DNA of 47,808 bases from a virus. Within the stretch, counting starts at the first letter, position 1, and each line of letters starts with the position of its first letter. The position numbers and the translations under genes are program-made. The notes under the pieces were generated by a model that saw only the letters and a list, made by a program, of their open reading frames with translations, had not been told where the DNA came from and did not search any database. The stretch is from IMG/VR virus record IMGVR_UViG_3300051212_000522, positions 1-47,808 of that record; one strand, written 5' to 3'. This document shows positions 8,701-47,808 of this stretch, in pieces.

Positions 8701-11700
8701 ACTATTAAAATTGATACTGCAAATCCTTGCTATTTTTATGATGGAGAAATAATTCGTCAGTCGCCAACTATATACGGAACACTTGTCGGGAATGTTTTTG
8801 ATGGAAAATCTTTAATTTTAAGAAATGTCAATGGAGTATTTGATAAATCTGCAACAATTTATACGGACATTAAAGTAGTACGTTTAATTATTGATAGAAG
8901 TTCAACATACACAGAAAATTCTACTATAAAATTAAAAGATGGCAAATCTGCAATAGTTAATTCGCTCAATAATAGTATTATTGGAGTTGCTCCGAATCCT
9001 TTTGTTGACGGTGATTCTATTACATTTACTGGAGGATTTGGCACTGTACAAACTGGGCAAAGATATTTTGTTGTCAACTCTACTAGCACAGGGTTTAAAA
9101 TATCATCAACTTTGAATGGAACTCCATTGACATTAGCAAATGCTAGTAATATAATTAGCACTGCAACTGGAGAAAAGGCAAGAGGAATAGTATTAGAAAG
9201 AGTAGACAATAAAAATAGTATTAAAATAAAAGTATTGTTTGGAGAATTTGTGATTGATGATGATTATTATTTGGAAAGTAGCACTCTTACTGATAGTGTA
9301 GGATCTAAAATATTTTCAACTAGTAATCTTAGCGAAGGTATTGATATTTTTTCAATCAATGAAAATATTGCTCTTGTTAAAACAAATACTGATCATAGTT
9401 TATCAATTGGTGATAAAGTTAATATTGACATAAATCCCAATGACATTTCTACAGAAACAACATACTATGTTAGAAGAAGAGTTTATCAAAAAGTAAAACT
9501 CAAAAAACCAGAAGTAAAAACAAAAATAACCGATAGTGGTATTGGACGCACGCAAGTTTTAAATTCTGGATCATATTATAGTTCTGGTTCAATAGTTGGT
9601 GATTATGCAAATGGTGGAAATAATACCTACACAAATGTAGAATTAATATTTTTAGATCAGACAAAATGTAGAGATATTGATGGTAACGAAGTTGGCAGTT
9701 CATCTTCTGCATCTGTTATAGGAAAACCTGGCAATACAAATAATGCAAGAGCTACTATTTCTGTAACCAATGGAATAGTTACATCTTTAACCATAACGAA
9801 TAAAGGTTCTTTATATGTACTTGGAGATATTTTAACTGTTTCTCCATCTTCCTTGGGAAGACCACTATCATCAGCAAATACTCAAAATTTAAAAGTAAAA
9901 GTAGATCATGTTGGTTTATCAGCATCAAATACTACATTAAAATTAGAAGATATTAAAAACATTTCTGTAAATGATTATCTTTTATTAAACAAAGAAATTG
10001 TCAAGGTTTCTGCCGTTTCAGAATCTAATTTATCTGCAACTATTGTTAGAGGACAAAATGGAACAATTCCCACTGATCATGTAGATCGTTTAGATGTAAT
10101 TGATTATGATATGTCTTACAGGATGACATATCCATATACGATAGGAACGCAATCAGGTAGTGCCATAGTAAAAAATTATGATAATAATACTAATATTTTA
10201 GATGTAGTTTATAGTTTGGCTTTGCCTGTAAATGCTATTAGTAAATTAACCGATAATTATACATTTTATGATCAAAGTATTCCAAAAAAATTGGTAACAG
10301 TAGAAAGTGTTATTGAAGAAGCAGAATATAAATTTGAATTTTCTCCTGATACTAGTGATTTAAATTATATTAGAAATCCTGTTCTTGATTTACAAAAATA
10401 TTACTCATACAAATTTGATACTAGTCATTATACTTTATCTGGATCATTTTTAGAATTTTCTCCCAGTAACAATTTTAATATAATAACTACCGAATCTATT
10501 AAAAGTCCATATTTACCTGGAAATTCAGGATCTTATATAAAATTAAAAATAGGGTATGGTTCGGCATTATCTACAAATACATATTCAGATAAAGTTAATA
10601 TTAATTTTGTAAAATTTTATTATTTTGATAAAGCAAATATAATTTCTTCAGATGATTCATATTTAAACTTAATAGATGATCCATTACAAGGAGAAAAAAC
10701 ACTTATATATGTGACTCCAAATTATTTTGCTTATTCCCTATCATCTAAACCACAGTGGGATGGATCTGGATCTATAACATACTATACTACATCAAAAACA
10801 GCAATAGGAAAAATTAAAGAAATCGGAATATCTAGTTATGGTGTAGATTTAGAAAGATTACCAGTAGTTGAAGGAATATATGCATCAAAATATGTTGAAT
10901 GTTTAACAGACGTAATTTGGGATTCTACTTTACAATCGATTCTGTCTGTAGAGATTCTTAGAAATGGAAGTGGATATTCAAAACCAAAAGCAGTTATCAC
11001 AAATGGAGATGGTGTCGGAGCAGTAATTGATGTTATAGTTGGAACTGGGGGAACAATAAGAGGAATTAATGTATTAAATTCTGGAAAAGGATATACTTAT
11101 AAGCCACATATTAAAATTATAGAAACTGATGTAAAGTGTTATTTTACTTCTTTAGATATTGGACTTCCAAAATCAATTAAAGTTGAATCTAATGGATATG
11201 GATTTTACACAGATCCAAGTATATCAAATTTTTATAAATCATACGATGTTTTAGTTTTGCAAAATGTAGATGACAATTCATTTGGTCCAGGAGAAGAAAT
11301 TGTTCAATACGAATCTTCTGTAGAAACAGCTAGAGGTAGAATTACTACAGATGGTTATAGAAATAAAACAAATATAATAAAAATCATCACATTAAGTGGA
11401 AATTTTAGAGAAAATTTGGAAATTTATGGAACAATTAAAAAAACTACTTGCTTAGTTAAAAAAATATTAAAATCATCTTTTACACCAGATATAAGAAACT
11501 ATGTAGACAACCAAGGGAAATATCTTTCTGATGATTCTATAGTAGGATTAAATACTCAAAGGATATCTGATTCGTTTTTTTATCAAGATTATTCTTATGC
11601 CATAAAATCAAAATCTCAAATAAAAGATTGGAGGCAATTAGTAACAAAAACAACTCATACAGCTGGATTTAAAATATTTGGTGAATTATCTGTAGAAAAT

Positions 11701-24828: not shown

Positions 24829-27800
24829 CAGAGAAATTTTACGAAATAAAACGCTTGAACAGGCAAGATTAATTACAAACCAAATTGGTGTTGATGTCGG
24901 CAATTTGGATAATCTCGATCCAACTTTTAGCGACAAAAGTAATATAGTTAACGTAGTTAATAGTTTAAAAAATACTGCCACTAAAGTAGCTTCTGCTTCA
25001 GACACTACTAGTTCTAGTAATTTAAACATTCCATTTTTAGCAGATACTAGTTCTGCTACTACAGTAAAATATAATTCTACTTTACAATTTCAATCAAACA
25101 CAAATACATTAAAAGCAAAAAATTTCAGTATTAATGATACTGCGGGGCAAATTCGCGTTCCGATTGGTACTGATCAAACTCCATCGATTGTTTTCAACTC
25201 TCCTGGTAGACCAGATGTAGGATTTTATAGAGTAAATAATAGTGATTCTGTCGGTGTAGGTTTTGCTGGGTTATCGCCCCAAATTAAATTTAATGCTGAT
25301 GGAACCATAAGTTCTGCTGGGGTTCAAACAGCAAATGCATCAGAACTTCAATTAACAAATAATACAAAATGTTTATATGTTAGTGAACAAGAATTATATG
25401 CTTCAGATTCTTGGACTAATAATGGACTTAGTTTAAACAAACCATTTAAATCTATTGGTAGAGCTTTATTAGAAGCAGCAAGACAATCTTATGTTGCAGA
25501 TACAGCATCCGATAAAAATAACGATAGATTTGAATATTTTAGTATTATTGTATTTCCTGGTAATTACGAAATTGATAATCGTCCAGGAAAATCTTTATCA
25601 ATTCAAAATGAAATAGATTTTTTTGATTTAAGAACAAACTACGGCCCTTCAGGAAAACTAGCAACAGTTCAAACTCAAACTGCAGTAGTATCGCCAAACA
25701 CTGGATGGTATTTCGCTGGTCTAACAAATACATACACAAATGTATCTGCATCATATGTGTCTGGAAGTAATAATGGAAGTGGGGCAACGTTTAACGTCGA
25801 ATTTACACCAGAAGAAACGATCATTACTGTAAATTCTTTAGGTTCTGGATATTTTGAAAATGAGGTATTAAAAATTTCTGGAGCTTCAATATCTTCACCT
25901 GGAGCAACAAGATCTGATTTAAATATTGTAATTACTTCCCTATTTGACGATAGCGAAATAAAAATTATAGAAAATTTATATCAATTAAATCCACCTTCAG
26001 GTGGAGTAATTGTTCCCAGAGGTACATCCATTGTTGGTCTTGATTTAAGAAAGACCGTAATTAGACCAAAATACGTTCCCGATCCCACTATCCCTCCATC
26101 TGGTGATCATAGAGCTCAAGACGCTGCTAATCTAATTAAATCTAATCGAGAATATATTATTTCAGAAGCTTTTGGATATCTAGAGGCAAATAAAACTAAA
26201 AAATCAATCAGTGCAATCACTAACGGAGCAGTTATAGGTTCTGGACCAGATGAACCAGATGTCTTCACTTGCGTTGCACATGGTTTTGTAGAAAATACTC
26301 CCATAAAATTTTTAAATATTCCTGCAAATACTACACTGCAAGCAAACCAAGTTTATTATGTAGATTATGTGACAGTTGATACTTTTAGAATTAAAAAATC
26401 AAAAAATAGTGCTCCTCTAAGTGATGTCAGAACTTCAACTGCAGTTACGGTTGGTTCTTTGCAAGCATATTCATTTAATGTTGGATCGCAATCATGCAAA
26501 AGAGATATTGGATATTTTATAGATGCACTTGTATATGACCTTTCTAGAGGCGGTAACTCGAAATTATACGACACAGCAGAATTTTATATTGATGGTAAAA
26601 ATACCAAACTAATAAAAGGTGCCACAGAAATTGCAGATACTTTAACGTGCTTAAAATATGCTACCCATTTAGCAGCATCTGCAGTTAGAAATCACGAATT
26701 TAAAATTAAAGGTGGTAAAAATACCAGTAATACAATAACTCTCAATAATGCCACATATGGTATTACGGTAGGAATGAATGTATCTGGAACTGGCGTAAAC
26801 ACTGGAGCAACAATTACTGCAGTAACTTATAATGTTTCTGGAGCAGTATCTTCTTTCACAGTTTCTAGTGCAAATACAACATCATACACCAACCAAGATT
26901 ATACACTTAGCGCAAAACAAAAATACAATTACGGTTTTGTAACTCCATTTACGCAAAGTAAATTTGATGTTTATCCAAATTTTGATAATTCGTATGTATC
27001 ATCTTCTGGAGCAACTACAGAATGCCAAAGTACTGTTAATTCTTTATTTACTTTATACACCTATTACGAAAAAGTTTTATCGTATCCAACAGAATATTTT
27101 ATTCCAGGAGCTAGCAATTTTGTACAAAAAATGTATCCATTTGGATACGATAGGGATTTAGAATCAGCACTGTTTAGAGTTACTGGTGGATGTTATTTTT
27201 GGCAGATGACATTTAAAGATGGTGATACTAGCAATAGACCATATTATGTAAATTCTTCTGGAATTTTAACTCAATATTCACCATTGATTGACGAACCAAC
27301 AAGTTCACAATTAAGTGCATATAAAATTTTATCAGAAAATAGAACAACAATTATTAATGATACATTTACTACATTACAATCCAATGTTACTCATGGATCA
27401 TATGCTACAGAAAAGTGCAAGAGAGATATTGGATATATTTTTGATGCGGTATCTACTGATTTATTTGATGGACCATCAGCAAATGCAAATACATATGATT
27501 CCGTTTTGCTATATTTTAATGCCGAAAGATCTGCATTGTTAAGTAATGGCATTGATTCATTAGCGGAAAGAAATGCTGCCATTTTTGCTTTTGATACATT
27601 AAAATCTAAAATGCAATATTATATTGATGATATAACAATTGATTCTAGAATTAATACTCTAGTTGGATATTTAACAACCGCTTTAAACTCACAAACAACT
27701 TCAAATTTACCTACTAGAGTTACAAACTCCAATACTGGACAATTTCCTTGTAGTCATCACAGATTAGTAGCTTTTAAATTTGCTAATAAACAAGAATTAA

Positions 27801-32535: not shown

Positions 32536-35500
32536 ATGCCAAATAGGATTATATTTACCAGTAAAACAAAGGTAGGAATTGAAGCTGGAAAAATTCCTAC
32601 CTCAGTTGATGTTTTAGTTCAAACTGATAATAGTCCAAACATGGATGATTTTCGTAATTGGGCTTCTGATACCAATGCATTAATTAGTTTAAATAGAACT
32701 CTTCAAAATGAAGGTATAGGTAATACTAGTTCTGGAGCACAATATTTTAATAGATATGGTTCTGCCAACTTATACCAAACTAAACTAATCCCAACTACAG
32801 ATTACGCAGGAAGAACTGTTGCCGCGCAAGGGGACAATAGATCTTGGATTAGAAAAGATTATATTGAAAATTATAAAGTAACCGCAAAAGGAGCACTAAA
32901 CAAAAGCAAAACAATTTTTACTGTAAATTTGAGTGGTGTTCAACAAACTGAAAAATTATATACAATTTTAGTTCCAACAGCTGGCGGCCTTGCTACAGAA
33001 CCTCCACAATCAAATGTTCTCGGCAATCCACCTCAACTTCCTGGCATTTTTGATGGTTCTATTACTAGAAAATTAACAACGTCAACAGGTAACACAACTG
33101 GTTTAAATTCTATTACTGTGACTTCTATATACGGAAGTTCTGTAGCATCATATGGAATATATCCTGGATCATCTATCAGTGGTACGGGGATTCCAGATGG
33201 AACTTATGTTGCTTCAACATACACAACTGGCAGTACAACTATTCCATTAGTTGATATTGATGGAAATACTGTTACTTTGACTGCAGATTGTCAAAACGAA
33301 ATTTTATATATTGAAATACCAGATAATATTATACCTCCAGGTGTTCCTCATTACAACACACCGACTAATGGTTCTGGTGCTACATTTGCTGTGTATTATA
33401 ACGAGGATTCTATAATTGAAGAAATTATTGTGGTTAATCCTGGCGATAATTATTCTGCCTCTAACCAATCAACAGTAAACAAACTAATTATTCCTGGCAG
33501 TTTAGTGGGTGGAGACGATGGAGATAATGATATAACATTAACGTCTTATAATTTAAATACATATGCGCTATTGATAACTGATACAGATTTCCAAGAAAAA
33601 AATGTAAATTTACAAGATACTATAAATTCCGAAGAAACTGGAATTGATACTTTTACTTATTCAGGAACTGCTGCAGGAACTGTAACTAAATCTGCAACTA
33701 TGGTGAAAGACCAAACTTTCATCACTGTTACTAATGCTAGCCTTATTGTAAAAGGAATGAAGGTAACTTCTTCCACAGGATTTGGTATACCACAAAATAC
33801 TTATGTTGGTGATAGCTACGTTTCTGGTTCTACTACTGTACCATTAACTACGTCTAATGGAATTACTCCAGTAAAAGTAACCTTAACATATACGACAGGT
33901 ATAAATGTTTCTTTCGAATATGCAGCAACATTTACCAATGTTACAGGAACTAACATTACTGGATCAGGAAGTGGCGCTACTTTTATTATCACAAAAAATA
34001 TAAATAATACTTACAATGTATTTTTAACTAGTTCTGGTTCTAATTATACTTCTGGCACACAAATTAGAATTCTTGGAAGTCAAATTGGTGGTGTTAATAG
34101 TACAAATGATCTAATTATTACTGTTCAAAAAGTATTGGATAAATTTCCACCAAATACTAGAGTTTCTTTTTTTGAAAGATCAAAAACTAATCCTGGATAT
34201 TATGAATTATATTTAAGTAGTTTGCCGAGAACTGGAGTTTCATATAGCAAAACTTCAACTTTAACTGGAAATACTTCTGGAAATAATTATATAGATATCA
34301 CAAACGGTTCAAGTATTGCTGCTGGTCAACAGATTGCTGGAACGAATTTAAATACTAGTGCTGCAAATAATATTTCATATGTTGCAAACTCTTTTGTCTC
34401 TAACAACACTCAAGGAGTAGGAGGATCTTGTAGAGTTCCTTTAACAGAAGCAGATGGGACAACAGAAGTTACTTTAACTGCAGATGCTAATAATTTATCT
34501 CTGACTTTTTCTTCGCCCGTAGTAATCGAAAATGGAGATGGATTAGTATTTTACAGATCATATAATAGTTTTTGGTCTCAATTAAATAGTGGTTCTATTT
34601 TTGAAGGTAGACCAACTAATTATATTGCATGGTATAGAGCTACAAAACTACAAACCAGAAATATTCCCGTAACATTATTGCCTCCAAATGACAGCAATAA
34701 TAAGTATAAATTATACAACCAAAGATTTAGAGTAGATAGTTCAGTAAACTTAAAAACAGCAGTTACTTTAGGTTCTGACTGGTCATTATATATCCAAGTA
34801 GGTAAAAATCCAGATCCAAAATGGGAAACATCTATTATAATTTCTATTGATACAAAATCAACATATGTTTTAAATGGAAAAACTAGATATATTTTTGAAA
34901 TAATTACACAATATCCATCAAAGTATTCTTGGGATTTATCCACCGAAGAAATTTCATATTGCTATATTTACAAAAATATTCTTGGCGGAATATTTTCAGA
35001 TTATATCACACAAACTGTTCCATACAACAAAGCATATGTAACATCTGAATATGTTTGGAAAGCTCCAACAACAGTGTCAATCCCTGTTACTAATACAGTA
35101 ACTACAACAGAAGGTGGTATTTTTAAATTAAACAGTATCAGTGATACTATTACAGGATCAACTCCTGTTTTTAGGGTGGCAGATAAAGATACTTACTCAA
35201 TGTTTATAAGAACATGGAGAGATATTTTACCACAAACTTATAGTGGAACACTAACATCTAATCAAATTAAATTAATTTCAACTGCATCAAACCCCAGATA
35301 TATTTTCTTAAATCCAAGAAGTATTCAATTCAGATCTGTGATGAACAATAATACTTATTTGAATGTTGATACTGGGAATTTAAATTTAGGAACTACACCA
35401 GAAACAAATCCAAATATTAATTATACTACTAATGTTATTCGTTTAGATACTTTCCCAACATATGCTCCAACAAACCCAGGTATATGGACCTATAGCTTTG

Positions 35501-38500
35501 GTAGGCAGTATTTGTACTTTCAAAATTATGCATGGAATTTTTATTCTGATAATTTAACTTCAAGTACATTTACTGGAAATCCAACTTCTTTATCATCCCC
35601 ATACAAATTTATATCCACTGTTCCATACTATCAAGGTGTTACTGTTACTGCAAGAGGAAGTTCCACGCCAATTTTAGTCACTTTAGATGCTCATGGATTA
35701 CAGGCTGGAGATGCAATACTATTCGACCAAAGTTTATATGGTATTTCTAGTGGCAGTATTAATAGTAGAGGAATTCGATCTGGTACAACATATTTTGTCT
35801 CGCCAAATAATCTAACAGAAAATACTTTTGAAATTGTTACCACAAAAACAGGAACAATATCATTAACTTCCTCTTCTGGTTCGTTGGCAGCACCAGCAGT
35901 TTCAACACCTGGAATGTATGTTGCATTACAAACTGTAAATACTACCATATCTTCATCACAAACTTCTGGTATTCAATTATCTGGACTTCATGGTTTGGTA
36001 ATCCGAGGTGTTTATAAAATTCAAGCAGGCACCACGGAACCAATTCAGCTACAAGATCAATATTATTATTTCAAGAGAGAATTTCCAAATAGAGAAAGTG
36101 TTGATGGTGAACCAAAAACTATAACTGCAATTTCTAGATCTGCTGGCAGTACTACTGTAACTGTAACCACAAGCACTGCTCATGGAATGAGTGTAAATGA
36201 TTTTGTTGTTATAACCACCACAGATTCATCACTAAACACCACAGAAAGCTCACCTGCAGTTGTAACGCAAGTAGTAAATTCAACTCAATTTAGATACACT
36301 ACGGCTGGATTAACAACTGCTGTTTCTTTAAGTGCTGGTACTGCTCAACCTAGAGCGGGATGGAAAAGATATATAAAAATAAATAATGAAATTTTATCTT
36401 TTGATTATTATACTGTAGACGGAAACAATCGTTTTACTTTATATGGTGTTGTTAGAGGAGAACTAGGAACTACTGCACAAACACATTCATCTGGATCGGA
36501 TATTAGTATTGCTTTAGATACGTGGTCATCATCTGGTGTTAGAGTTTCAAACAACTTGTTTAATACTAATGGAACATTAAAATCAAATGTAAATTTAACA
36601 TATCAAAATAATTGGACATATACTAGAGAATTTCCAGATTATGGTGGGTCGAATGGATTAATGTATCATGGAGTAGGAAGAAGAGATGCATTCCAACCAT
36701 CCAGATGGGAGGTAGCATTGTTTGGTCCTGGATATTTTGCTCCAGGAACTTTATCATTTGTTAGTGTACCATCAACTACAGATACTACAAGAACATCTGG
36801 TAGATACACAACCGTTAGTGGAACTGCGAATGCCATAGGAACTGGTGCCCAATTTACCATTACAATTGGATTAACAACTACAAAAACAGCAGCTTCATAT
36901 ACATCTGGAACAAATCAAATAGTTTTAGATGATGCTACTTCTGTTGTTGCTGGTCAAAAAATTCAATCTTCTGCAAGTGGCATTCCTTCAAACACTACAG
37001 TAACTAATGTATCTGGCAATACTATAACTTTATCTGCTAATTTAACTTCTTCCCAAACTTCCACAACTACTCTTTATTTCTTTGATGCTACAGATAGAAC
37101 TGTAATAGCTTCGGTAACTAATGGGGGTTCTCAATATAAAATTGGAGAAACTATTACCATACCAGCTTCAAGCATAGGTGGAACGGGATCTAGTTTAGTT
37201 TTGACAGCAACCTACCTAAATTTTGGAACTTTATATGATGGAATGGATTATGCTCAACCTGGAATAGGCAAAAAATTAAATAAAAATCCATATTATCAAG
37301 CTCTTTATAAAGAATCAAGTGAAGTCAAATACTACCAAGAACCAGCAGAAATAGGTCAACGTTCATACGAAGATTTGTTTGGTGCTTTTTCACAAGCAAT
37401 GGTGAAAACGAAAAATATTATAAGTGGAATTCCAGATGATACAACTCCTTATTATAATGTAAGATCTTCATCAGATGCTATTTTGTTACAAGCATCTAGA
37501 GACCAATATTTCTCTTATCTATCTGGTTTAATCAAAAGACCAAAATATTTAACGACAGCAACTACAATAAATTCAAATGTTCTACAAATTAATGATGCTA
37601 TTGGCATTGAAGTAGGTGATACAGTATATGGTCCTGGAATTGATACTGATGGCGCTATTGTTAAAAGTATCACTGGACCATCATACTTCACACTTTCATA
37701 TAGAAATGGTGTAATTAAATTAGGAGATGGAACATACAAAAAAACTTCTGGTAGTTGGTCATGGAACTCTGATGCATATTCGATAACTGGATATACTACT
37801 AATGTAGTAGCATCCGCAAGGGCAGGAGAAACAACCAGTTATATTATGTTTGGATTGAATAGTGACCCATTGACAAATTCCAGTTACACATCAATAGATT
37901 ACGCATGGTATCCAGCTGGAAATGGTAGATTATATATTTACGAAAATGGTGGTTATATTGGAGATTATGGTGTCTATTACACAACTACAAATTTAAAGAT
38001 AGAATATAATGGTTCACAAGTAATATATTATAAAGATGGTGTTGCCCAGAGAACTGTTAATAGATCGATAGGAAATCCTTTATACTTTGATTCATCTTTT
38101 GTGAATGTTGGCGCATCATTAAAAAATGTATTTTTTGGAGAAATTGGAACAACAACTTCTGGTAGAGAAGCAACCATACAATTACGACAAAAGAGAACTA
38201 TTATAAAAAATATTGATGTTGTAAGTTACATTTATAATAACTTTGCACAAGGAGGATACGAATACCCAGTTAATGATGCTGCATTGGGAATTGTAGCTAG
38301 AATTTCTATTCCAAACTCATATGGAATAAGTCAAACACTTGTTCCAGATATTGTTAATGGTCCGTTCAAATATTACATTTCAGAAATTAAATTTGAATAC
38401 GTTGACCCAATTTACCAATCTCAATTTAAAACATTTTTCTTTGAAGAAGATAAGTATTCTTGCCCAATTTTAAAAACCGAAATTGATAACAATAGTGGAA

Positions 38501-41500
38501 ATCTGTTTTTATATATCAAAAACCCAACTGCTCTAACAGATGCAACAAAAGAAAAATATGATTCCAAATTATATTCACTCAAATCAAAAATTGATATTGT
38601 TGTCTTTGAAGATTATAAATTAAATCCAGAAGTAACAAGAGTAGGGGTAACTTTATCAACTTCCACAAAAGAAGTTAATGTTATTAGTGTCACTGGTATT
38701 AAGCAAGGAATGACTGTAACTACTTTCAATCCTGGAGGGTTTACAAATTATACTGGCACACTACCAGCAAACACAACTGTACAATCAATAGTAAATGATA
38801 CTACTATTTTATTAAATAATTTTCCCACTGCTTCTGGATTAGCATCTCTAAAATTTGTAAACAATTCAATTTATCCAATTGGTACACAATATATTTTTGA
38901 TCCATCCCCAAATTTAAACAAAAATAATAGATATATTTTAGATTCTGCTAGACCATCATATTTTACATCAAAATGGATTCCAAATCAAACAGAGTTAGAT
39001 TTATATTTTTCACCTGATATTAATGATCCATCAAATTCAATAAATTATCCATTTAATTTGAATGATGAAGTTAAATATTATGCTGTGGATAGTGCAGACA
39101 AATTTGTATATAAAATTTCTACAATTACATTAAATAGTGGATCTTCTTACTTATCTCGCTCTACAACTGATACATCATTTGCTAATTTAGCGGTAGGTCA
39201 AAAAATTTATTTTACAAATATCCCAGCAGGAGTTTCATTGTCAGAAAATACTCCATATTATATTACATATGTTTTAAATAATGATCTAAGAATTTCAACT
39301 ACATCTGGAGGATCGCCAATAGATATTTCTAGTGGAGTAACTTTATCTAATTTGAATCTTAGAATGAGAAGAGTATATGATACTGGATTTTATAGAAATA
39401 CTTTAAGAACATCTTTAACATATTTTGATTATCAAGTTCAAACTAGTATTTCAGAAGTTCCTTCTGGTGATGTATTTGCTGTAAATGTCGCCACAAACGG
39501 CGGCACTTTAAATAACGGACAGATTACTGGACAATCATTCAGTGGCACAGCATTAACCACTTATAGTGGATTGAGTGTTTCAAATATTTCTGGATCTGGT
39601 TCAGGAGCGACATTCAATGTTTCAAAATCTGGAACTACATACACTCCAACTAAAGTCAACTCTGGAGATAATTATCAAGTAGGAAACCAATTTAATATTT
39701 TAGGAACATCTTTAGGCGGAGCAACACCAGCAAATGATTTGACATTCACGGTGTCAACTATTTCTAACTCCACATACACCGCACTTTCTGGAACTAATAT
39801 TTCTGGTTCTGGTTCTGGAGCAACATTCAACGTCACTCGTTCTGGCACCACATATACACCAACAGTAAATGCTGCTGGTTCTGGATATGCAGTTAACAAT
39901 CAAATTAGAATTTTGGGAACAGCATTTGCTGGGGGCGCTACTACAACAAATGATTTAACAATCACTGTTGCTTCGGTGACTACAGTTAATTACACTGCGT
40001 TGTCTGGCACCAATGTTAGTGGTACTGGCACAGGAGCAACATTTAACATCGCTCGTTCTGGCACTACATATACACCAACGGTAAATGCTGCTGGTTCTGG
40101 ATATGCAGTTGGCAATCAAATTAGAATTTTAGGAACCTCATTAGGCGGTGCAACTACAGCAAACGATTTAACTATTACAGTTGCTACAGTAACACCAGTT
40201 ACATATACTGGATTATCTGGTACTAATGTTAGTGGCACTGGCACAGGAGCAACCTTTAATGTAAGTAGATCTGGAACAGCATACACAGTAACTGTAAATG
40301 CTGCTGGTTCTGGATACGCTGCAACCAATCAAATTAGGATTTTAGGAACATCATTGGGGGGAGCTACCCCAGCAAATGATTTGACTATCACAGTAAATAC
40401 TACAAGTTCAGGAAGTTTAACAACAGCAGGAAACTCATACTCTGGAACAGCTATTGCTTCAAATCCAATTGCAACTATTACTTCTTCTGGAACTGCATTT
40501 GGCACCGCAATATCAACAATTACCTCATCTGGAACTGCCGTTGCTGCTGGTCCACTAAACACTTTCACATCATCAGGAACAGCACTAACATCATATACTG
40601 GATTAACTGGAACAGTAACTGGTGGAGGAAGTGGGGGAACTTATACAGTAACAGTAAGTGGAACAACATATACAATTAGCAGAACAGCAGATGGATCCAA
40701 TTATACTACAAGTAGCAGTATAAAAATACTAGGAACATCACTTGGAGGATCTACACCTGCTAATGATTTAACCATCACAATTTCTTCCGTTTCTACTGGC
40801 GGAAGCAATTTACTATTGACTTCTGGAAATTCTGTACAAGCAGGTATGTATGTTGTATCAAATATTAGTGGTATACCAGCATTAACAGTAGTAGGGAGTA
40901 GTTATGTTTCTGGTTCATCTACAGTTCCTCTAAGAGATACTTCAGGAAATCCAGTAAGTTTAACAGCAAACATGAGCGGACAGCAGGTTATATTTACCAA
41001 AGCCGCTGTGAGAGTTTATTCATATGATAACACAGCATTTAATACATATCCATATATTGGAGTGGCATATCGTCCATCAGCAACTGGATATCCAGTGGAA
41101 TCAAATGGTGTAAATACTCAGATACCATCCGTTGCATTCCAAGATCAATTACAATTCACTTTTGCTAATGATACCTTACCTCAAGAAATTTATCCATATG
41201 CAAAAATAGAAGTTAAATGGCCGTCGTTAACTTTAGCACAAAATATTACAGTAAACGATACTATTATTAAGGTAAATGAAATTATTCCAGAAGGGTATCC
41301 AGAATTCGGAAATGTAAAAATTGGCACAGAAAGAATTTATTATGGTTATAGAACTAATACTTATTTTGGGGATTGTGTAATTAAATTCCCACACGCAGCA
41401 AGTGATACAATTACACACAGTCCCAACTATTCTATAAAAGTAGATGGTCTATTACAAAATGGTTGCTCACAAAACAACCAGACAAAACTTATTGTAATGG

Positions 41501-44500
41501 CACCAACTCCAGGATCATCTACTGGTTATTCTCCTAGTGCATCAGCACAAACTGTATATGTTGCTGGATTTGAAATGGATCAGGATTCTACCAATACTAT
41601 TAGTTTCCCATCAACGGCAAAATATACTGTAATAAGTGATAAGATAAATTCTTCCATCGAAGTAACAGTTAGTAGAACTGGTAACTCCATTACTTTACCA
41701 GCTAACGCTATTAAAACTGGACAGACATTAAATGATGGAGATGAGATTATTCTATTAACTAGTTTTGGATTAGGTTCTGGTTATAAAATTGTTCAACAGT
41801 TATCATCTTCTAAGATTCTATTAAACAAACCAACATTATCAGATACTAGAAACACTAGTGGCGTTGCAGAATATAGAAGATTATTCTCAACAGATTCCGA
41901 TATTATTTCTGGAATGAATGATACATTCATTGACACTGCATTGAATTTTAATGCAAAGAAAGGATTGAAATATGTTGGATTATCTGGTTGTACTGATTTC
42001 AAGCCAGTTAAATGTACAAAGATAAAATATGCAACAGCAACCGCAAATAAGTATTCAAATACAATAACTTTAGCAGATGATATTGCGGCATCAACTTACA
42101 CACTATCTGGTTTAAGTGCTTATTTTTCATCTGGATCTACAAAAGCATCAAATGTAAAATCAGTTCTTTTCTTTGATGGAGAAGATTATGAAATAAAATC
42201 TATTAATACCACAACTAGAGTTGTGACATTAGTTCAACCATTGAAGCAAAAAATAAGATTCAGAGATGCTGTTACTATAAAATCTGATGGTTACATTCCA
42301 GAATTTGAAAGAGTTCCTAATGTTAAAGGATTGGTTTATGGTCCACAGAAAGCGGTATTCTATGATAGATATAGAGCTGCTCAGGTATCTGCAGCAAGTT
42401 TAGGATATAATAGCACTGTTAATAGATTTAGATGGAGATTGACATTCACAAGAGGAGTTCCATCTGGGTTAGCGTTGAATGATAAAGTTTCAACTAACTT
42501 AAATTATAATGATTATTTCATTACTTGTTTACCAAGTTCAAGTGAATTAGGAACTACAACATCATCATCTCAAATTATTGTTTCTTCTTCATCTAATATA
42601 TTACCAGACAGAAATGGATCAAACCAAAATGTAAATCAAAATATTGTTTACTTCAGCAAACCAAATGGTTATGTTGCTAGAGATTTTGAATCTGCATCAA
42701 TGCAAATAGGTGGATACAAAAACTCTTCAAGACAGCAAATTATTCCAACTCAAGTTTTAGCAGAAGCTACTGATGGTGCTATTGCTGATATTGAAGCAGT
42801 TTCAACAAGAGCAACTAGAGATATATTTACTTCTTCATTGGGTGAAGTAATGGGTAGATTCTTGTTCAAACAAAAGAATTTTGCTTCTTCAAATAGACCA
42901 AATCTATGGAGAAATGAAATAACACCTCCAACTGGAATGAATGTGAAAACAGGAAAATTATTATCATACATTGTAAATAATGTTCCTAATTATATTACAT
43001 TCCAATCAGCAACCAATAGTAAATTATTTTATGGAGATTCTTCAACATGGTCAACGTTTACTGCAACATCAATAACTATAAATGATATAGGTCTAGATAC
43101 AACAAACTCCAGATTATTGTTTGCTTGTTCTTCAAACACAATTAGATATTCTTCGTATTCAACGCCAACTACATTCTCAACAACAACTATATCTGGTTCT
43201 GGTACAAATACTTATATTACATATGTTGGTGGTTATTATTTTGTAGGAAACAGCACGGGTGGACTATATTATTCAACTTCAGTTGCTGGCACTTTCTATA
43301 GTATAACTACAGGAAATACAAGTCCAATTCTTGGTGTATATTATGATGAATTTAAATTCGTTATAACACATGAAAGAATATCTGGATCTGGAACAGTGTA
43401 TAAAAATTACACCGTTGAAACATTAACTGGTGCTGCAATGAATATTAACACAGCATCAGATAAAATAAAAGGTCTCACAAACTTATTCTCTCCAAAGAAA
43501 ACAATATCTTCTGTGTCTGGATTCGGAAAAATACTAGAGGCTGGTTATTCTTTATTTGATGGAGTTTCTACTTATTCATCGCCAGTAACCGAAGTATATG
43601 AGTATGAGAACTTCTCTGATTATACTGCAGATGATATTTCAGACGATTTCGAAACAAAGGGATTATCATTTAACTTTGGACAATTTGCTGCATTCGGAAA
43701 ACAAACAAGTACAAATAAACAATTTGTTAAATACTCTTCAAATGCTAGATTATGGGATACTGTTGAATTTGAAAATCTGATTTCACTTAACGATGAGATT
43801 ACTGGATTTGTATACGGTGGATTCAATAACTATGTTGCTATTGTATGGGATTCAACCACATCAACAAACAAAATACTAACGTCAAATGTAAAATCTCTTA
43901 GCGATACAGCAACATTTACAGTATCCACAAATTCTAGTGGATCAGTAACTGGAATATCTGCTATATCATCTGCTGGAACTGGTTATTTTGTTGGCGATAC
44001 AATTACTTTAGAATCTCCAGGTATTCCAAATAATAAAGTTATTTTAACGGTTTCAGCAGTTAATGCTTCCAGGGGAATAACTTCTTTCACACACCCACAG
44101 ATATCTTCAGGATCTCCAGTTTCTTCAGGAACATTCTCTAGTCCACAAGGTTCTGGATATACTGCAAGTCAAACTAATGTTACTGCAAAATCTTCTGTTG
44201 ATACTTCCCAAACTTCTAGATATAGAAAAATAGAAGAATCGGAAAGTATAAAATTATACAAATATAAAACAATAACAACGTCACAGGAAGGTAATTTATT
44301 AATATGGAATTCAGGCACCAGTAAATTAATTTGGCTTAAAAATTTATTTGGTTCTCCATTAAAATCAAATGAGTTTACAGATTACAAATCTCTAGCAGCA
44401 GAAAATTTTGTGGTGTACACAAAAAATTTAAAGTTATTACCAAATTTTAGATCTATAAATGATGCTGATGGTGCTTCTAGAGCAGTTAGCATTTACAATG

Positions 44501-45492
44501 AAAGATTGCCATTAGGATCAGCAACTATTGCAACATCTGGAAATGGTTATCAATATGGAACTTATACTGGAGTTGAAATATTAAATGGATCTACTTCTGA
44601 ATATGGAAATAATAGAGCAACTGCTACCGTTGGAGTTGATGATACTGGCAAGGTAATATCTGTTAAAGTAGACACATCTGGTGATTATTATCCCTCAAAT
44701 ACTTCACTTTTATTGGTTAATGATACTGGAATTTTAGAAGGATCAGGTGGTTCTGTAAAATTAAATTCAAGTAGAACTGTAAATAAATTAAATATTACTT
44801 TCACTACTACATCACAAACTTCTTATACGAAAACTGCTACATGGTCAGCAAATTCTACAACTGTAACTTTATCGAACTTGACTGGTATAACAATTGTACC
44901 TGGCCAGGAAATTACTGGATCTGGAATACCTACAGGAACTTATGTTGGTAGTAGCTACAGTTCTGGAACTTCAATTCCTCTAGTTAATGCTTCTGGATCT
45001 TTGGTAACATTATTATCTGCTTCATCTGGATCTCCAACATTAACATTTAAATTAAACTTTATTACTATACCCGCAGGACAAGATGTTAGTGGTTTAGTTA
45101 GAGGAATGACAGTTACTGGAGGAACATTGCAAACAGGAACAGTAATATTGAATAATTATTTTGCATCTGAAAATGTAGGACCAGTTGACATTCCAATCAG
45201 CAAAGCTCCAAGTTCCAATTTTACATTACAAACTTTATCATTCAGTATTTCTGGAACGCAAGCTTCTATTACTACATCCCAGACAGCATTAGATGCAAGC
45301 ACATTTTCATTAAATGGTTTTAATGATGGAGAATCTGGGTATTGTGTATTGTATAGAAATACTTTAAATGGCATTGATTTTATTGCATTGTTCTTTAATT
45401 CTTCTGGAATTTTGGTTGATTGTATTACTACACTAAAATCAAGTGACATTATTCACTTGTCTCGTACAGAGATGTTTGCACAGGCTCTATAA
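32536..45492 (+). CDS. Very large tail/adhesin-type structural protein (4318 aa)
   Basis: The gene is an uninterrupted 13-kb frame, starting 2 bases after the preceding stop. The N-terminus (MPNRIIFTSKTKVGIEAGKI) begins like other virion proteins of this region. The rest is a chain of beta-rich modules. They include 'GTYV..[ST]Y..GST.IPL' modules (near 212, 405, 2765 and 4120), a 'NNEILSF...VVRGELGT...H' element near 1285-1330, and a lectin-like beta-sandwich at about 1735-1872 (GRLYIYENG at 1797, LKIEYNG at 1820). A tandem array of 70-residue repeats fills 2342-2755, and probable propeller-like strands lie at about 3476-3790. Composition is rich in Ser, Thr, Asn and Gly, with very few Cys. 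It most likely forms a long fibre or adhesin that touches the host surface. No enzyme motif was identified. Confidence 0.75.
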   Translation: MPNRIIFTSKTKVGIEAGKIPTSVDVLVQTDNSPNMDDFRNWASDTNALISLNRTLQNEGIGNTSSGAQYFNRYGSANLYQTKLIPTTDYAGRTVAAQGDNRSWIRKDYIENYKVTAKGALNKSKTIFTVNLSGVQQTEKLYTILVPTAGGLATEPPQSNVLGNPPQLPGIFDGSITRKLTTSTGNTTGLNSITVTSIYGSSVASYGIYPGSSISGTGIPDGTYVASTYTTGSTTIPLVDIDGNTVTLTADCQNEILYIEIPDNIIPPGVPHYNTPTNGSGATFAVYYNEDSIIEEIIVVNPGDNYSASNQSTVNKLIIPGSLVGGDDGDNDITLTSYNLNTYALLITDTDFQEKNVNLQDTINSEETGIDTFTYSGTAAGTVTKSATMVKDQTFITVTNASLIVKGMKVTSSTGFGIPQNTYVGDSYVSGSTTVPLTTSNGITPVKVTLTYTTGINVSFEYAATFTNVTGTNITGSGSGATFIITKNINNTYNVFLTSSGSNYTSGTQIRILGSQIGGVNSTNDLIITVQKVLDKFPPNTRVSFFERSKTNPGYYELYLSSLPRTGVSYSKTSTLTGNTSGNNYIDITNGSSIAAGQQIAGTNLNTSAANNISYVANSFVSNNTQGVGGSCRVPLTEADGTTEVTLTADANNLSLTFSSPVVIENGDGLVFYRSYNSFWSQLNSGSIFEGRPTNYIAWYRATKLQTRNIPVTLLPPNDSNNKYKLYNQRFRVDSSVNLKTAVTLGSDWSLYIQVGKNPDPKWETSIIISIDTKSTYVLNGKTRYIFEIITQYPSKYSWDLSTEEISYCYIYKNILGGIFSDYITQTVPYNKAYVTSEYVWKAPTTVSIPVTNTVTTTEGGIFKLNSISDTITGSTPVFRVADKDTYSMFIRTWRDILPQTYSGTLTSNQIKLISTASNPRYIFLNPRSIQFRSVMNNNTYLNVDTGNLNLGTTPETNPNINYTTNVIRLDTFPTYAPTNPGIWTYSFGRQYLYFQNYAWNFYSDNLTSSTFTGNPTSLSSPYKFISTVPYYQGVTVTARGSSTPILVTLDAHGLQAGDAILFDQSLYGISSGSINSRGIRSGTTYFVSPNNLTENTFEIVTTKTGTISLTSSSGSLAAPAVSTPGMYVALQTVNTTISSSQTSGIQLSGLHGLVIRGVYKIQAGTTEPIQLQDQYYYFKREFPNRESVDGEPKTITAISRSAGSTTVTVTTSTAHGMSVNDFVVITTTDSSLNTTESSPAVVTQVVNSTQFRYTTAGLTTAVSLSAGTAQPRAGWKRYIKINNEILSFDYYTVDGNNRFTLYGVVRGELGTTAQTHSSGSDISIALDTWSSSGVRVSNNLFNTNGTLKSNVNLTYQNNWTYTREFPDYGGSNGLMYHGVGRRDAFQPSRWEVALFGPGYFAPGTLSFVSVPSTTDTTRTSGRYTTVSGTANAIGTGAQFTITIGLTTTKTAASYTSGTNQIVLDDATSVVAGQKIQSSASGIPSNTTVTNVSGNTITLSANLTSSQTSTTTLYFFDATDRTVIASVTNGGSQYKIGETITIPASSIGGTGSSLVLTATYLNFGTLYDGMDYAQPGIGKKLNKNPYYQALYKESSEVKYYQEPAEIGQRSYEDLFGAFSQAMVKTKNIISGIPDDTTPYYNVRSSSDAILLQASRDQYFSYLSGLIKRPKYLTTATTINSNVLQINDAIGIEVGDTVYGPGIDTDGAIVKSITGPSYFTLSYRNGVIKLGDGTYKKTSGSWSWNSDAYSITGYTTNVVASARAGETTSYIMFGLNSDPLTNSSYTSIDYAWYPAGNGRLYIYENGGYIGDYGVYYTTTNLKIEYNGSQVIYYKDGVAQRTVNRSIGNPLYFDSSFVNVGASLKNVFFGEIGTTTSGREATIQLRQKRTIIKNIDVVSYIYNNFAQGGYEYPVNDAALGIVARISIPNSYGISQTLVPDIVNGPFKYYISEIKFEYVDPIYQSQFKTFFFEEDKYSCPILKTEIDNNSGNLFLYIKNPTALTDATKEKYDSKLYSLKSKIDIVVFEDYKLNPEVTRVGVTLSTSTKEVNVISVTGIKQGMTVTTFNPGGFTNYTGTLPANTTVQSIVNDTTILLNNFPTASGLASLKFVNNSIYPIGTQYIFDPSPNLNKNNRYILDSARPSYFTSKWIPNQTELDLYFSPDINDPSNSINYPFNLNDEVKYYAVDSADKFVYKISTITLNSGSSYLSRSTTDTSFANLAVGQKIYFTNIPAGVSLSENTPYYITYVLNNDLRISTTSGGSPIDISSGVTLSNLNLRMRRVYDTGFYRNTLRTSLTYFDYQVQTSISEVPSGDVFAVNVATNGGTLNNGQITGQSFSGTALTTYSGLSVSNISGSGSGATFNVSKSGTTYTPTKVNSGDNYQVGNQFNILGTSLGGATPANDLTFTVSTISNSTYTALSGTNISGSGSGATFNVTRSGTTYTPTVNAAGSGYAVNNQIRILGTAFAGGATTTNDLTITVASVTTVNYTALSGTNVSGTGTGATFNIARSGTTYTPTVNAAGSGYAVGNQIRILGTSLGGATTANDLTITVATVTPVTYTGLSGTNVSGTGTGATFNVSRSGTAYTVTVNAAGSGYAATNQIRILGTSLGGATPANDLTITVNTTSSGSLTTAGNSYSGTAIASNPIATITSSGTAFGTAISTITSSGTAVAAGPLNTFTSSGTALTSYTGLTGTVTGGGSGGTYTVTVSGTTYTISRTADGSNYTTSSSIKILGTSLGGSTPANDLTITISSVSTGGSNLLLTSGNSVQAGMYVVSNISGIPALTVVGSSYVSGSSTVPLRDTSGNPVSLTANMSGQQVIFTKAAVRVYSYDNTAFNTYPYIGVAYRPSATGYPVESNGVNTQIPSVAFQDQLQFTFANDTLPQEIYPYAKIEVKWPSLTLAQNITVNDTIIKVNEIIPEGYPEFGNVKIGTERIYYGYRTNTYFGDCVIKFPHAASDTITHSPNYSIKVDGLLQNGCSQNNQTKLIVMAPTPGSSTGYSPSASAQTVYVAGFEMDQDSTNTISFPSTAKYTVISDKINSSIEVTVSRTGNSITLPANAIKTGQTLNDGDEIILLTSFGLGSGYKIVQQLSSSKILLNKPTLSDTRNTSGVAEYRRLFSTDSDIISGMNDTFIDTALNFNAKKGLKYVGLSGCTDFKPVKCTKIKYATATANKYSNTITLADDIAASTYTLSGLSAYFSSGSTKASNVKSVLFFDGEDYEIKSINTTTRVVTLVQPLKQKIRFRDAVTIKSDGYIPEFERVPNVKGLVYGPQKAVFYDRYRAAQVSAASLGYNSTVNRFRWRLTFTRGVPSGLALNDKVSTNLNYNDYFITCLPSSSELGTTTSSSQIIVSSSSNILPDRNGSNQNVNQNIVYFSKPNGYVARDFESASMQIGGYKNSSRQQIIPTQVLAEATDGAIADIEAVSTRATRDIFTSSLGEVMGRFLFKQKNFASSNRPNLWRNEITPPTGMNVKTGKLLSYIVNNVPNYITFQSATNSKLFYGDSSTWSTFTATSITINDIGLDTTNSRLLFACSSNTIRYSSYSTPTTFSTTTISGSGTNTYITYVGGYYFVGNSTGGLYYSTSVAGTFYSITTGNTSPILGVYYDEFKFVITHERISGSGTVYKNYTVETLTGAAMNINTASDKIKGLTNLFSPKKTISSVSGFGKILEAGYSLFDGVSTYSSPVTEVYEYENFSDYTADDISDDFETKGLSFNFGQFAAFGKQTSTNKQFVKYSSNARLWDTVEFENLISLNDEITGFVYGGFNNYVAIVWDSTTSTNKILTSNVKSLSDTATFTVSTNSSGSVTGISAISSAGTGYFVGDTITLESPGIPNNKVILTVSAVNASRGITSFTHPQISSGSPVSSGTFSSPQGSGYTASQTNVTAKSSVDTSQTSRYRKIEESESIKLYKYKTITTSQEGNLLIWNSGTSKLIWLKNLFGSPLKSNEFTDYKSLAAENFVVYTKNLKLLPNFRSINDADGASRAVSIYNERLPLGSATIATSGNGYQYGTYTGVEILNGSTSEYGNNRATATVGVDDTGKVISVKVDTSGDYYPSNTSLLLVNDTGILEGSGGSVKLNSSRTVNKLNITFTTTSQTSYTKTATWSANSTTVTLSNLTGITIVPGQEITGSGIPTGTYVGSSYSSGTSIPLVNASGSLVTLLSASSGSPTLTFKLNFITIPAGQDVSGLVRGMTVTGGTLQTGTVILNNYFASENVGPVDIPISKAPSSNFTLQTLSFSISGTQASITTSQTALDASTFSLNGFNDGESGYCVLYRNTLNGIDFIALFFNSSGILVDCITTLKSSDIIHLSRTEMFAQAL
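37740..38150 (+). other. Lectin-like beta-sandwich domain inside the 4318-residue protein
   Basis: Translated residues of about 1735-1872 show the alternating strand pattern of concanavalin-A/LamG-like domains: SIDYAWYPAGNGRLYIYENG, then GDYGVYY, LKIEYNGSQVIYYKDGVAQR, and FDSSFVNVGASLKNVFFG at the end. Such domains bind sugars or act as fibre spacers. The assignment is by eye. Confidence 0.5.
39559..40800 (+). repeat. Tandem array of about 213-bp coding repeats
   Basis: Four head-to-tail copies begin at 39559, 39772, 39988 and 40201 (units of 213, 216, 213 and 213 bp, 71-72 residues each). A fifth, more diverged copy lies at 40591-40800. Each encodes a unit of the form 'Y[TS][GA]LSG.N[IV]SG.G.GATFN' then 'GSGY...NQIRILGTSLGGAT.ANDLTITV'. 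Copies 2 to 4 share long stretches at DNA level (for example AATGCTGCTGGTTCTGGATA), which points to recent duplication or gene conversion. Between copies 4 and 5 (40414-40590) is a short degenerate array of 'SSGTA' motifs. Confidence 0.9.
42961..43900 (+). other. Probable beta-propeller-like segment in the 4318-residue protein
   Basis: Residues of about 3476-3790 contain recurring strands of the type 'YI.YVGGYYFVGNSTGGLYY' followed by 'STS..GTFYSIT', and later 'GFVYGGFNNYVAIVWD'. This resembles repeated blades of BNR/Ycf48-like propellers. Blade number and boundaries cannot be fixed by eye. Confidence 0.35.
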
Positions 45493-45495
45493 ATA
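45488..45495 (+). promoter_or_regulatory. Late promoter box overlapping a stop codon
   Basis: TATAAATA at 45488-45495 (preceded by C, giving CTATAAATA) contains the TAA stop of the 4318-residue gene (45490-45492). It is 27 bases before the next start. Confidence 0.65.
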
Positions 45496-45522
45496 TTATA
45501 GTTATCATTTTACATTAAAACA

Positions 45523-45729
45523 ATGGATACGACTCAGCTTAGAGAAAATTTTAAAACTCAATTAGCGGAAATTGAAGGTAAAATTACAAAAATTCAAGAA
45601 GAGTTAACTAAGGCACAAGAGTATAAACTAAAACTTCAAGGTGGTTTAGAAACTTTGGATTTGCTATCGCAAGAACCTGAAAGTATTCCAGCACCAGAAG
45701 TTGATGTAACTGAAATAGAAGATAAATAA
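45523..45729 (+). CDS. Small coiled-coil protein (68 aa)
   Basis: Residues 1-48 form one long charged helix with heptad hydrophobics (MDTTQLRENFKTQLAEIEGK, then ITKIQEELTKAQEYKLKLQG). An acidic, proline-containing tail follows (EPESIPAPEVDVTEIEDK). It is the first gene after a late promoter box and precedes small virion-type genes. It could be a chaperone or trimerisation factor for fibre assembly. No family was recognised. Confidence 0.7.
   Translation: MDTTQLRENFKTQLAEIEGKITKIQEELTKAQEYKLKLQGGLETLDLLSQEPESIPAPEVDVTEIEDK
45721..45728 (+). promoter_or_regulatory. Possible weak late promoter box
   Basis: GATAAATA differs at one base from the T4 late box and overlaps the TAA stop of the coiled-coil gene. 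It is 18 bases before the next ATG. Confidence 0.3.
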
Positions 45730-45746
45730 TTTAAAAGAGTAATTAA

Positions 45747-46082
45747 ATGGCAGCAGTACCCATTAATCTAGTTATAGAGCAAGGTACAGATTTCTATGCT
45801 ACCTTCACCGTCACAAACGATGATGGTACGCCATTAAATCTGTCTGGATTTAATGGCACCTGTAAGATGAAAACATCACATGCATCTAAAGCAACTCCTA
45901 TATCAGTTGACTTGGGGTATGTGAGTAGGTCTGCAGGAAAAATCTCTATATCTATGACTGCTGCTAATACCACAAACTTAAAAGCAAGGCGATATGTTTA
46001 TGAGATAATTCTTATCTCACCAAACAACGTCAAGGCAAGAGTTATTGAAGGATTGGTAGAAGTAACTCCAGGAGTGCTATGA
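45747..46082 (+). CDS. Small beta-sandwich virion protein (111 aa)
   Basis: The sequence runs NLVIEQGTDFYATFTVTNDD, GTPLNLSGFNGTCKMKTSH, GKISISMTAANT, then RRYVYEIILISPNNVKARVI ending EGLVEVTPGVL. This 'IEQG.DF...F......GTPLNL.G' plus 'RYVYE' pattern is a frequent small immunoglobulin-like virion protein in T4-like marine phages. It probably decorates or connects tail fibres; the precise role is unknown. AAGAG at 45735-45739 serves as ribosome site. The stop overlaps the next start (ATGA). Confidence 0.75.
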   Translation: MAAVPINLVIEQGTDFYATFTVTNDDGTPLNLSGFNGTCKMKTSHASKATPISVDLGYVSRSAGKISISMTAANTTNLKARRYVYEIILISPNNVKARVIEGLVEVTPGVL

Positions 46083-46756
46083 CTGACTATAATGTAATAC
46101 TGGGGCAAAATGACCAATTCAATATTGGTGTTAGTTACGAAATACCTAGCAAATCTAATCAATATCAAAACCTTTTAATTGATGATATCGCTGCTCAATT
46201 TAATGGTTCATTAACCACGTTTGCTATAGAAGTAAATGGCGAACCTTATTATCCAGTAAACGAACAACAACTGATTGTTTCTTTGAACAATGTTGTTTTG
46301 GAGCCAGGTGTTGATTATACTATTCTTGATGATCAAATTACATTTACTGTAGCTCCTTCTAGTGGGTCTGATGTTTTTATTGTCGCTATGGCGACCACAG
46401 CAGACCTCACAAGAACTATAAACTACGTGGTAGATGCCTCTCCTAACGTGATAGGAACGGGTGTGAAGGGGCAAGTTACACTTGATGTAACTGGTACTAT
46501 AGAATCCTGGACACTGGTATCAGACACGCCAGGCAATCTTGTTGTTGATGTAAAGAGAACGACATATCAAAATTACCCATCGTTTTCTTCAATAACTGGC
46601 ACTGAAAAACCAACTCTCTCAAATCAAGCAAAGAACAAAGATGACGGTCTTTTGACCTGGAATACAATTCTAAATGCTGGAGACATATTACGTTTTGAAG
46701 TGGAGAGTTGCGACTTGATTAAACAATTTATGATTGCCATGAAATTAAAATTGTGA
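46079..46756 (+). CDS. Virion structural protein with fibre-type repeat (225 aa)
   Basis: The start codon overlaps the previous stop (ATGA), so the pair is coupled. Residues 38-106 carry a unit 'FNGSLTTFAIEVNGEPYYP', 'LIVSLNNVVLEPGVDYTI' and 'ITFTVAPSSGSDVFIVAM'. This is the same fold pattern as the 'VDGVLQ' repeats in the 2950-residue protein. The second half is beta-rich with SPNVIGTGVKGQVTLDVTGT and a C-terminal LRFEVESCDLIKQFMIAMKL. It is probably part of the tail-fibre or connector set. No catalytic motif is visible. Confidence 0.7.
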   Translation: MTDYNVILGQNDQFNIGVSYEIPSKSNQYQNLLIDDIAAQFNGSLTTFAIEVNGEPYYPVNEQQLIVSLNNVVLEPGVDYTILDDQITFTVAPSSGSDVFIVAMATTADLTRTINYVVDASPNVIGTGVKGQVTLDVTGTIESWTLVSDTPGNLVVDVKRTTYQNYPSFSSITGTEKPTLSNQAKNKDDGLLTWNTILNAGDILRFEVESCDLIKQFMIAMKLKL

Positions 46757-46762
46757 TAAATA
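46755..46762 (+). promoter_or_regulatory. Possible late promoter box before the last gene
   Basis: GATAAATA at 46755-46762 overlaps the TGA stop (46754-46756) of the preceding gene and lies 43 bases before ATG 46806. Confidence 0.35.
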
Positions 46763-46791
46763 ATAGTAGTCAAATAACAGACGGAATTTCT

Positions 46792-46797
46792 GGAGGA
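46792..46797 (+). promoter_or_regulatory. Strong ribosome binding site of the last gene
   Basis: GGAGGA at 46792-46797 is 8 bases before ATG 46806. It is the best Shine-Dalgarno sequence in the window and suggests high expression of the following gene. Confidence 0.8.
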
Positions 46798-46805
46798 AAT
46801 CTCAA

Positions 46806-47808
46806 ATGCCATTAACAGTTCCTAATATCGGTGAGCAGGAATCTCTTCGTTACCTAGTTAACTACGGTCTTGCGAAGCCAACAAACCTAATTCTAAAACT
46901 TCTATCAACGGCGACTAGCGTTTCTTGGGCTGGTCCTACCGAATCAGATACTCCAACTAGCTTACTAGCAGCTACTGGAACCATCAAAGAACCATACACA
47001 TATTCTTCTGGTGGAACTTCAGCATCTACCCCACTTGGTTACCCAGCGTGCGATGCTCCATATGCTAACCAGTATGGTAAGCTTCTTGATGGTTCTAACT
47101 GGACTTGCACACAAGCAGAAGGCACTGATACAACTACTGCTTCATATCCCGAGCAAACATTTACCTTCACTTCAGGTAATACTTATATTCATGGTTACAT
47201 GGTTTGCCGCGCAAACAGCATCAAGCAAGATTTCCTAAACAATACTACTGCTTCTGTTACAGTTGCTGCTGCTTCTGCTCTAACAGGCACAGCTTCAACT
47301 GCTACTGCTAATGGTGGTCCTAACGGTTTTGCTACCAACACTCTTGGTTCACCATATTGCCAAGTCAACGCTGTAGCGTCTCCAACTGGTTCGGCTGGTG
47401 CATTTAACAGCTCCTCATTCACGGTCAGCTCTGCTACTGGTATTGTTGTTGGTCAGTATGCTGTTGGAACTGGCATTGGTCCTTATGCTCGCGTAACTGC
47501 AATCAACTCAACAACGATTTCACTTTCAGTTCCTTGCACAGGAACCGTTTCTGGAACCGTTAACTTCTACGAAGGCAGATGGGCACAAGGTCAGGATATC
47601 AGTGGAACTGGTATTCCTGCTAGCACGAAGATTAATGGTTATGACCCAATGACTGGTATCATTACCTTAAGTCAGAATGCCAACGCAACTATTTCTGGAA
47701 CTATTACCGCAGCATTTAAAGTAATTTCTGGAACTGCTCACGGTGGTCTTCCTGGTGACGTTGTATACCTCGCTCGTCAGTCAGGTAACTCAACTCTAGT
47801 TGCTGGAA
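46806..47808 (+). CDS. Fibre-type virion protein, cut by the right edge (at least 334 aa)
   Basis: The frame is open from ATG 46806 to the end of the window. It starts MPLTVPNIGEQESLRYLVNY, the usual opening of a family of tail-fibre-associated proteins in T4-like marine phages ('VPN.GE'). A Thr/Ala-rich region around residues 150-185 is followed by 'ATGIVVGQYAVGTGIGPYAR' and 'GQDISGTGIPASTKINGY', modules of the kind also found in the giant proteins. GC content is higher than in the giant genes (45% in line 47401-47460), and with the strong ribosome site this suggests a highly expressed structural gene. The C-terminus is outside the window. Confidence 0.75.
   Translation, partial: MPLTVPNIGEQESLRYLVNYGLAKPTNLILKLLSTATSVSWAGPTESDTPTSLLAATGTIKEPYTYSSGGTSASTPLGYPACDAPYANQYGKLLDGSNWTCTQAEGTDTTTASYPEQTFTFTSGNTYIHGYMVCRANSIKQDFLNNTTASVTVAAASALTGTASTATANGGPNGFATNTLGSPYCQVNAVASPTGSAGAFNSSSFTVSSATGIVVGQYAVGTGIGPYARVTAINSTTISLSVPCTGTVSGTVNFYEGRWAQGQDISGTGIPASTKINGYDPMTGIITLSQNANATISGTITAAFKVISGTAHGGLPGDVVYLARQSGNSTLVAG

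Follow-up and report, generated by a model that had tools for sequence, protein, structure and literature searches.

The present analysis indicates that the repeat array in the giant tail-fibre-like gene of this virus is likely to reflect slow modular evolution at the level of lineages, in which shaft or spacer domains in the middle of the protein are gained and lost by occasional unequal recombination, and not a switch. The window, i.e., the whole stretch of 47.8 kb analysed here, is a virus record with T4-like baseplate genes (gp53-like, gp6-like, a gp7-like giant protein, and gp8), and its gp8 is 42–44% identical over the full length to cyanomyovirus gp8. The phage is an uncultured marine T4-like myovirus. 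The baseplate genes are followed by a gene for a 2726-residue protein, to which a PHROG scan of the window genes assigned no function, a 2570-residue short-tail-fibre-like protein (PHROG 529/4527, tail fibre), an open reading frame (ORF) of 4318 residues (32536–45492, plus strand), and an LtfC-like gene (45747–46082, plus strand). The product of the last gene is probably a fibre chaperone; it matched PHROG 3304 ('L-shaped tail fiber protein assembly', E 6e-22) and, below the curated cut-off, the Pfam LtfC model (E 3e-4). The array is carried by the 4318-residue ORF, which was delineated by ORF calling and translation. This ORF matched neither PHROG nor Pfam entries above threshold, and we infer from its neighbours only (the gp53, gp6, and gp8 baseplate genes and the short-tail-fibre-like ORF upstream, and the LtfC-like gene downstream) that it encodes a giant tail-fibre-like virion protein.

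A tandem array at this site had been proposed in the initial annotation, and TRF, pairwise identity, and a profile HMM built from the array units, which was also used to find further copies, bore this out. Four copies of a homologous 64-residue domain lie in tandem within one reading frame at 39562–40395 (plus strand, as are all features of the window below). Unit 1 (39562–39753, HMM E 5e-23), unit 2 (39775–39969, E 4e-24), which is one residue longer, unit 3 (39991–40182, E 1e-26), and unit 4 (40204–40395, E 1e-26) begin 213, 216, and 213 nt apart, each with a core of 64–65 residues and a seven-residue linker. A low-complexity linker (40396–40593) separates them from unit 5 (40594–40782, E 7e-18), and the whole array occupies residues 2343–2750 of 4318, in the middle of the protein. 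TRF reported 39817–40394 with a period of 213, 2.7 copies, and a score of 737; no other repeat in the window scored highly, the runner-up reaching 52. The micro-repeats in the linker are also real: four SGTA motifs occur in its approximately 66–67 residues, a number reached in 0 of 20,000 shuffles, and they recur as a repeat family with a period of approximately 14 residues (42–45 nt) at 61–81% identity. Inverted repeats near the array were weak and were products of the repeat itself, and no invertase-like arrangement was found there.

According to structure predictions, the units are small, independently folding beta-structured domains. A two-unit model based on a 48-row alignment was all-beta except for one short helical turn in each unit (pLDDT 91). 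In a longer model of 409 residues, units 1–4 and unit 5 folded as separate repeats joined by a linker with pLDDT below 50 (23–47). The pTM of 0.42–0.63 leaves the orientation between domains unfixed in these models. The unit model had no match by fold in the PDB, in which sequence and profile searches also yielded chance-level matches only. In Pfam, the consensus unit came closest to Fn3_arc (20.7 bits, cut-off 28.9) and unit 3 had no match. Matches among the predicted viral structures of BFVD included cyanophage tail proteins, and the best single-domain match had an rmsd of 0.9. The domain itself seems to be uncurated.

Copies 2–4 had been described in the initial annotation as recently duplicated and nearly identical over long stretches. 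This description was not upheld. Units 2 and 3 share 83% of nucleotides (86% of amino acids), units 3 and 4 share 79% (88%), and units 2 and 4 share 77%, amounting to 80–88% amino acid identity among the three, and unit 1 is 69–71% identical to the others at the nucleotide level. The longest exact run common to units is 30 nt (39865/40081), and no exact repeat elsewhere in the window is longer. The dS between units was 0.49 (2–3), 0.86 (2–4), and 0.93 (3–4) versus 1.0–1.4 for the array flanks and 1.04 for the single-copy unit at 33931 when the window was compared with its ortholog L083 (see below), although 64 codons allow no precise estimate of values near 1. Units 2–4 thus seem to postdate the split from L083, yet they are far from recent, and gene conversion could have made them appear younger than the duplication. 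Since the differences among units 2–4 fall mainly on third codon positions (20/32, 28/40, and 28/45; dN/dS approximately 0.1–0.2), we regard the units as being under purifying and not diversifying selection.

Diverged single copies were found far from the array, as had been claimed. One is located in the N-terminal part of the 4318-residue protein (33931–34125, E 4e-17) and another in the neighbouring 2570-residue protein (25733–25933, E 8e-11). The profile added a more diverged copy in the 4318-residue protein (33337–33543, E 4e-6), which the initial annotation had not listed. A weak unit-like domain (43867–44022, E 0.005) lies, according to the alignment with L083, inside a stretch missing from that ortholog. 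This second indel (window 43750–44060 vs L083 11032–11085) is approximately 270–280 nt longer in the window, the unit-like domain is gone in L083, and another retrieved locus, L088, appears to hold only part of it.

L083 (IMGVR_UViG_3300011268_000440) is collinear with the whole 4318-residue ORF and 73–75% identical in the DNA flanking the array; no other ortholog found spans the array. Apparent frameshifts break the ortholog gene (L083 1–12377) into several frames, probably due to sequencing errors in that contig. Searches for further orthologs with N-terminal, middle, and C-terminal parts of the protein returned only L088 besides, which covers the 3′ end only, and residues 3595–4318 had no match among sequenced phages. 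At the same site, the window has 4+1 units and L083 has 2+1, and the tandem block of 834 nt in the window is 417 nt in L083, exactly two units shorter. In blocks of 64 residues, the median identity to L083 is 73% across the gene and 20–61% across the array, which is the least conserved among the well-aligned stretches. Units 2–4 are at most 62% identical to any L083 unit, and unit 5 is syntenic to the last L083 unit (58% amino acid identity). Since support in trees of 64 residues was weak except for the 2–3 pair, matches were counted directly. Positions at which units 2–4 match only a sister unit outnumbered those matching only the compared L083 unit (S1 or S2) by 19:1, 20:3, 30:2, and 31:5 (p 8.6e-4 to 2.5e-7). 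Because units 2–4 are closer to each other than to the units of L083, the array appears to have been rebuilt after the two lineages split. The single-copy units at 33931 and 33337 retain 77% and 85% amino acid identity to their L083 orthologs, respectively; therefore, it is the tandem array that turns over and not the domain as such.

Two further observations concern the 3′ part of the gene. Over 45253–47808, which takes in the 3′ end of the ORF together with the genes that follow it, the DNA is 92% identical to L083, versus approximately 73–75% in the upstream part of the ORF. So sharp a step suggests that the fibre end has either recombined or been strongly conserved. Residues 4033–4224 (approximately 44632–45207), which lie immediately ahead of the conserved C-terminus, are another divergent stretch, with 39–44% identity to L083. 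This region is a candidate for host specificity and is better placed for that role than the array.

The same domain was present in 80 retrieved viral loci and, by sequence, in the cultured cyanophages S-CAM1, S-CAM3, S-SSM7, and S-PM2. The longest run found is in L082, in which nine tandem units (7977–9893) lie in a 5488-residue open frame. In another fibre-like gene, four units occur in L004 and L006 versus three in L007, L008, and L013, the missing unit being evident from the alignment for L008 and from the unit counts for L007 and L013. The alignment of L004 with L008 revealed one clean in-frame unit of 222 nt that is present in one and absent in the other, between flanks that are closely similar. 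The extra unit of L004 is older than the split of its flanks because it is 73–78% identical to its nearest relatives there, compared with 88% for orthologous units; loss or import is as likely as gain for this difference. Tandem copy number differed in seven of the pairs whose flanks averaged 65% identity or more, corresponding to approximately two independent events; bins of this table below approximately 60% identity were ignored because they put together units of one protein that are not orthologous. The claim that the array can expand or contract is thus supported on an evolutionary scale and in whole in-frame units (4+1 vs 2+1; 4 vs 3), but rapid switching was not seen. We consider that copy number changes over at least 10% divergence and not within strains, as judged from these alignments.

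Changes in the number of tail-fibre domains have been described in other phages. The Xanthomonas oryzae phages OP1, Xp10, and Xop411 carry tail-fibre domains in tandem in differing numbers (PMC2248197; Inoue et al. 2006, cited there), and OP1 mutants with domain duplications in the tail fibre show host-range changes (PMC2248197). Similarly, duplication of part of the adhesin gp37 gives T4 a wider host range (Tetart et al. 1996, cited in PMC2248197). The array in the window resembles the Xanthomonas phages in that whole domains of a tail-fibre gene, here a putative one, occur in differing tandem numbers among related phages. However, the domains in those phages are small and N-terminal, and the phagovar changes of the host-range mutants were reported, whereas the units in the window are diverged and lie mid-protein. 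As in T4 gp37, a T4-type phage carries a duplication within a gene for a fibre, here a putative one; in contrast to T4, in which the duplications are in the adhesin and widen the host range, the stretch in the window is mid-protein and under purifying selection. The virion proteins of S-CAM1, S-CAM3, S-SSM7 (gp7), and S-PM2 share the domain with the window by sequence and predicted fold (BFVD), but mostly contain spaced single or paired units in constant number, whereas four units follow one another regularly in the window, and no sequenced phage has a close relative of the protein that carries them. The gain and loss of domains is, therefore, a known kind of fibre evolution, and the array is a further instance of it in a domain family that seems to be uncurated.

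These precedents bear on two other readings of the array. The initial annotation had suggested a phase-variation-like mechanism, in which the array often expands or contracts within a population and generates length variants. Its tandem, in-frame arrangement, the difference in copy number between related phages, and the duplications in OP1 host-range mutants are consistent with such a contingency locus. However, an actively expanding array is expected to hold identical copies, and the units in the window have a longest exact repeat of just 30 nt and dS values of 0.49–0.93. Furthermore, none of the 115 pairs with both flanks at least 99% identical differed in tandem copy number. Six isolates of S-CAM1 and three of S-CAM3 were gap-free across their domain-bearing genes at 99.7–99.8% identity, although arrays there are less regular and this evidence is, hence, indirect. 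We consider frequent switching to be very improbable. It had also been suggested that the array serves receptor variation, the units binding the host surface and their diversification or recombination altering the host range. The units are the most divergent part between the orthologs, such beta domains occur in many marine phage tail proteins, and the duplications in T4 and OP1 do change the host range. However, the array is central in the protein, the differences among its units are mostly synonymous, and there is neither an A-directed pattern nor a second template as in a diversity-generating retroelement. No reverse transcriptase was found among the window genes scanned against PHROGs, and in place of an adenine-directed variable repeat, we found changes mostly at third positions in units that all code within one ORF. 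This reading is rather unlikely, if somewhat less so than frequent switching. Because the array is mid-protein and selection on it is purifying, the array more probably affects spacing than receptor choice.

The difference from L083 may also have arisen by import of the whole array from an unrelated phage instead of duplication within the lineage. Unit 1 of the window and unit 1 of L083 are only 38% identical even though their flanks are approximately 70% identical, and the extra unit of L004 is, as noted above, older than its flanks. However, no donor was found, and the best foreign units, those of L070 and L075, are 69–75% identical to units 2–4, below the 80–88% among units 2–4 themselves. 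With 62–75% identity only, L070 and L075 were ruled out as donors of the array. We regard import as unlikely, although it deserves more weight than the two readings above. On the other hand, the source is a metagenome contig, and the array may be a chimera or a collapsed or inflated repeat; a collapse could hide extra identical copies. However, the frame of 4318 codons is intact, an exact repeat of 30 nt is resolvable by ordinary assembly k-mers, and L083, an independent contig, has an array at the same place. An assembly artefact is, therefore, extremely improbable.

We thus favour slow gain and loss of domains between lineages. The units would act as spacer modules in the shaft or spacer part of the giant tail-fibre-like protein, and their number would determine how long or how widely spaced this part of the fibre is. 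Of the proposed change in fibre length, slow length variation is supported, and the effect on length itself is deduced from the tandem arrangement. T4-type phages recombine intensively. Units may occasionally be gained or lost through unequal homologous recombination at mutually similar units, either within one genome or between co-infecting relatives, and purifying selection would act on the units while copy number changes slowly between lineages. More tentatively, and with odds that we place below even, the uncurated 64-residue beta domain, which has no detectable solved relative, may be used generally to build the giant structural proteins of marine T4-like phages; recombination would repeatedly reset its tandem number in the shaft, so that each lineage has a fibre length suited to the surface layers of its host.

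The array provides a concrete case, with orthologs, of the gain and loss of whole domains in giant virion proteins near the baseplate of marine T4-like phages, and it allows slow modular evolution to be told apart from rapid phase variation. Since the domain is widespread and has neither a Pfam model above the cut-off nor a PDB fold match, a single structure may allow many 'hypothetical' virion proteins to be annotated. The unit-bearing ORFs of L006 (6855–10862), L008 (5936–9238), and L063 (6281–8632) also match PHROG 5107 (amidase), and it is possible that the domain adjoins a cell-wall-degrading part in these proteins. In L070 (1–2530), long collagen-like Gly-X-Y tandem arrays with periods of 27, 36, and 72 nt lie upstream of the unit-bearing ORF, and L075 seems to have the same arrays.
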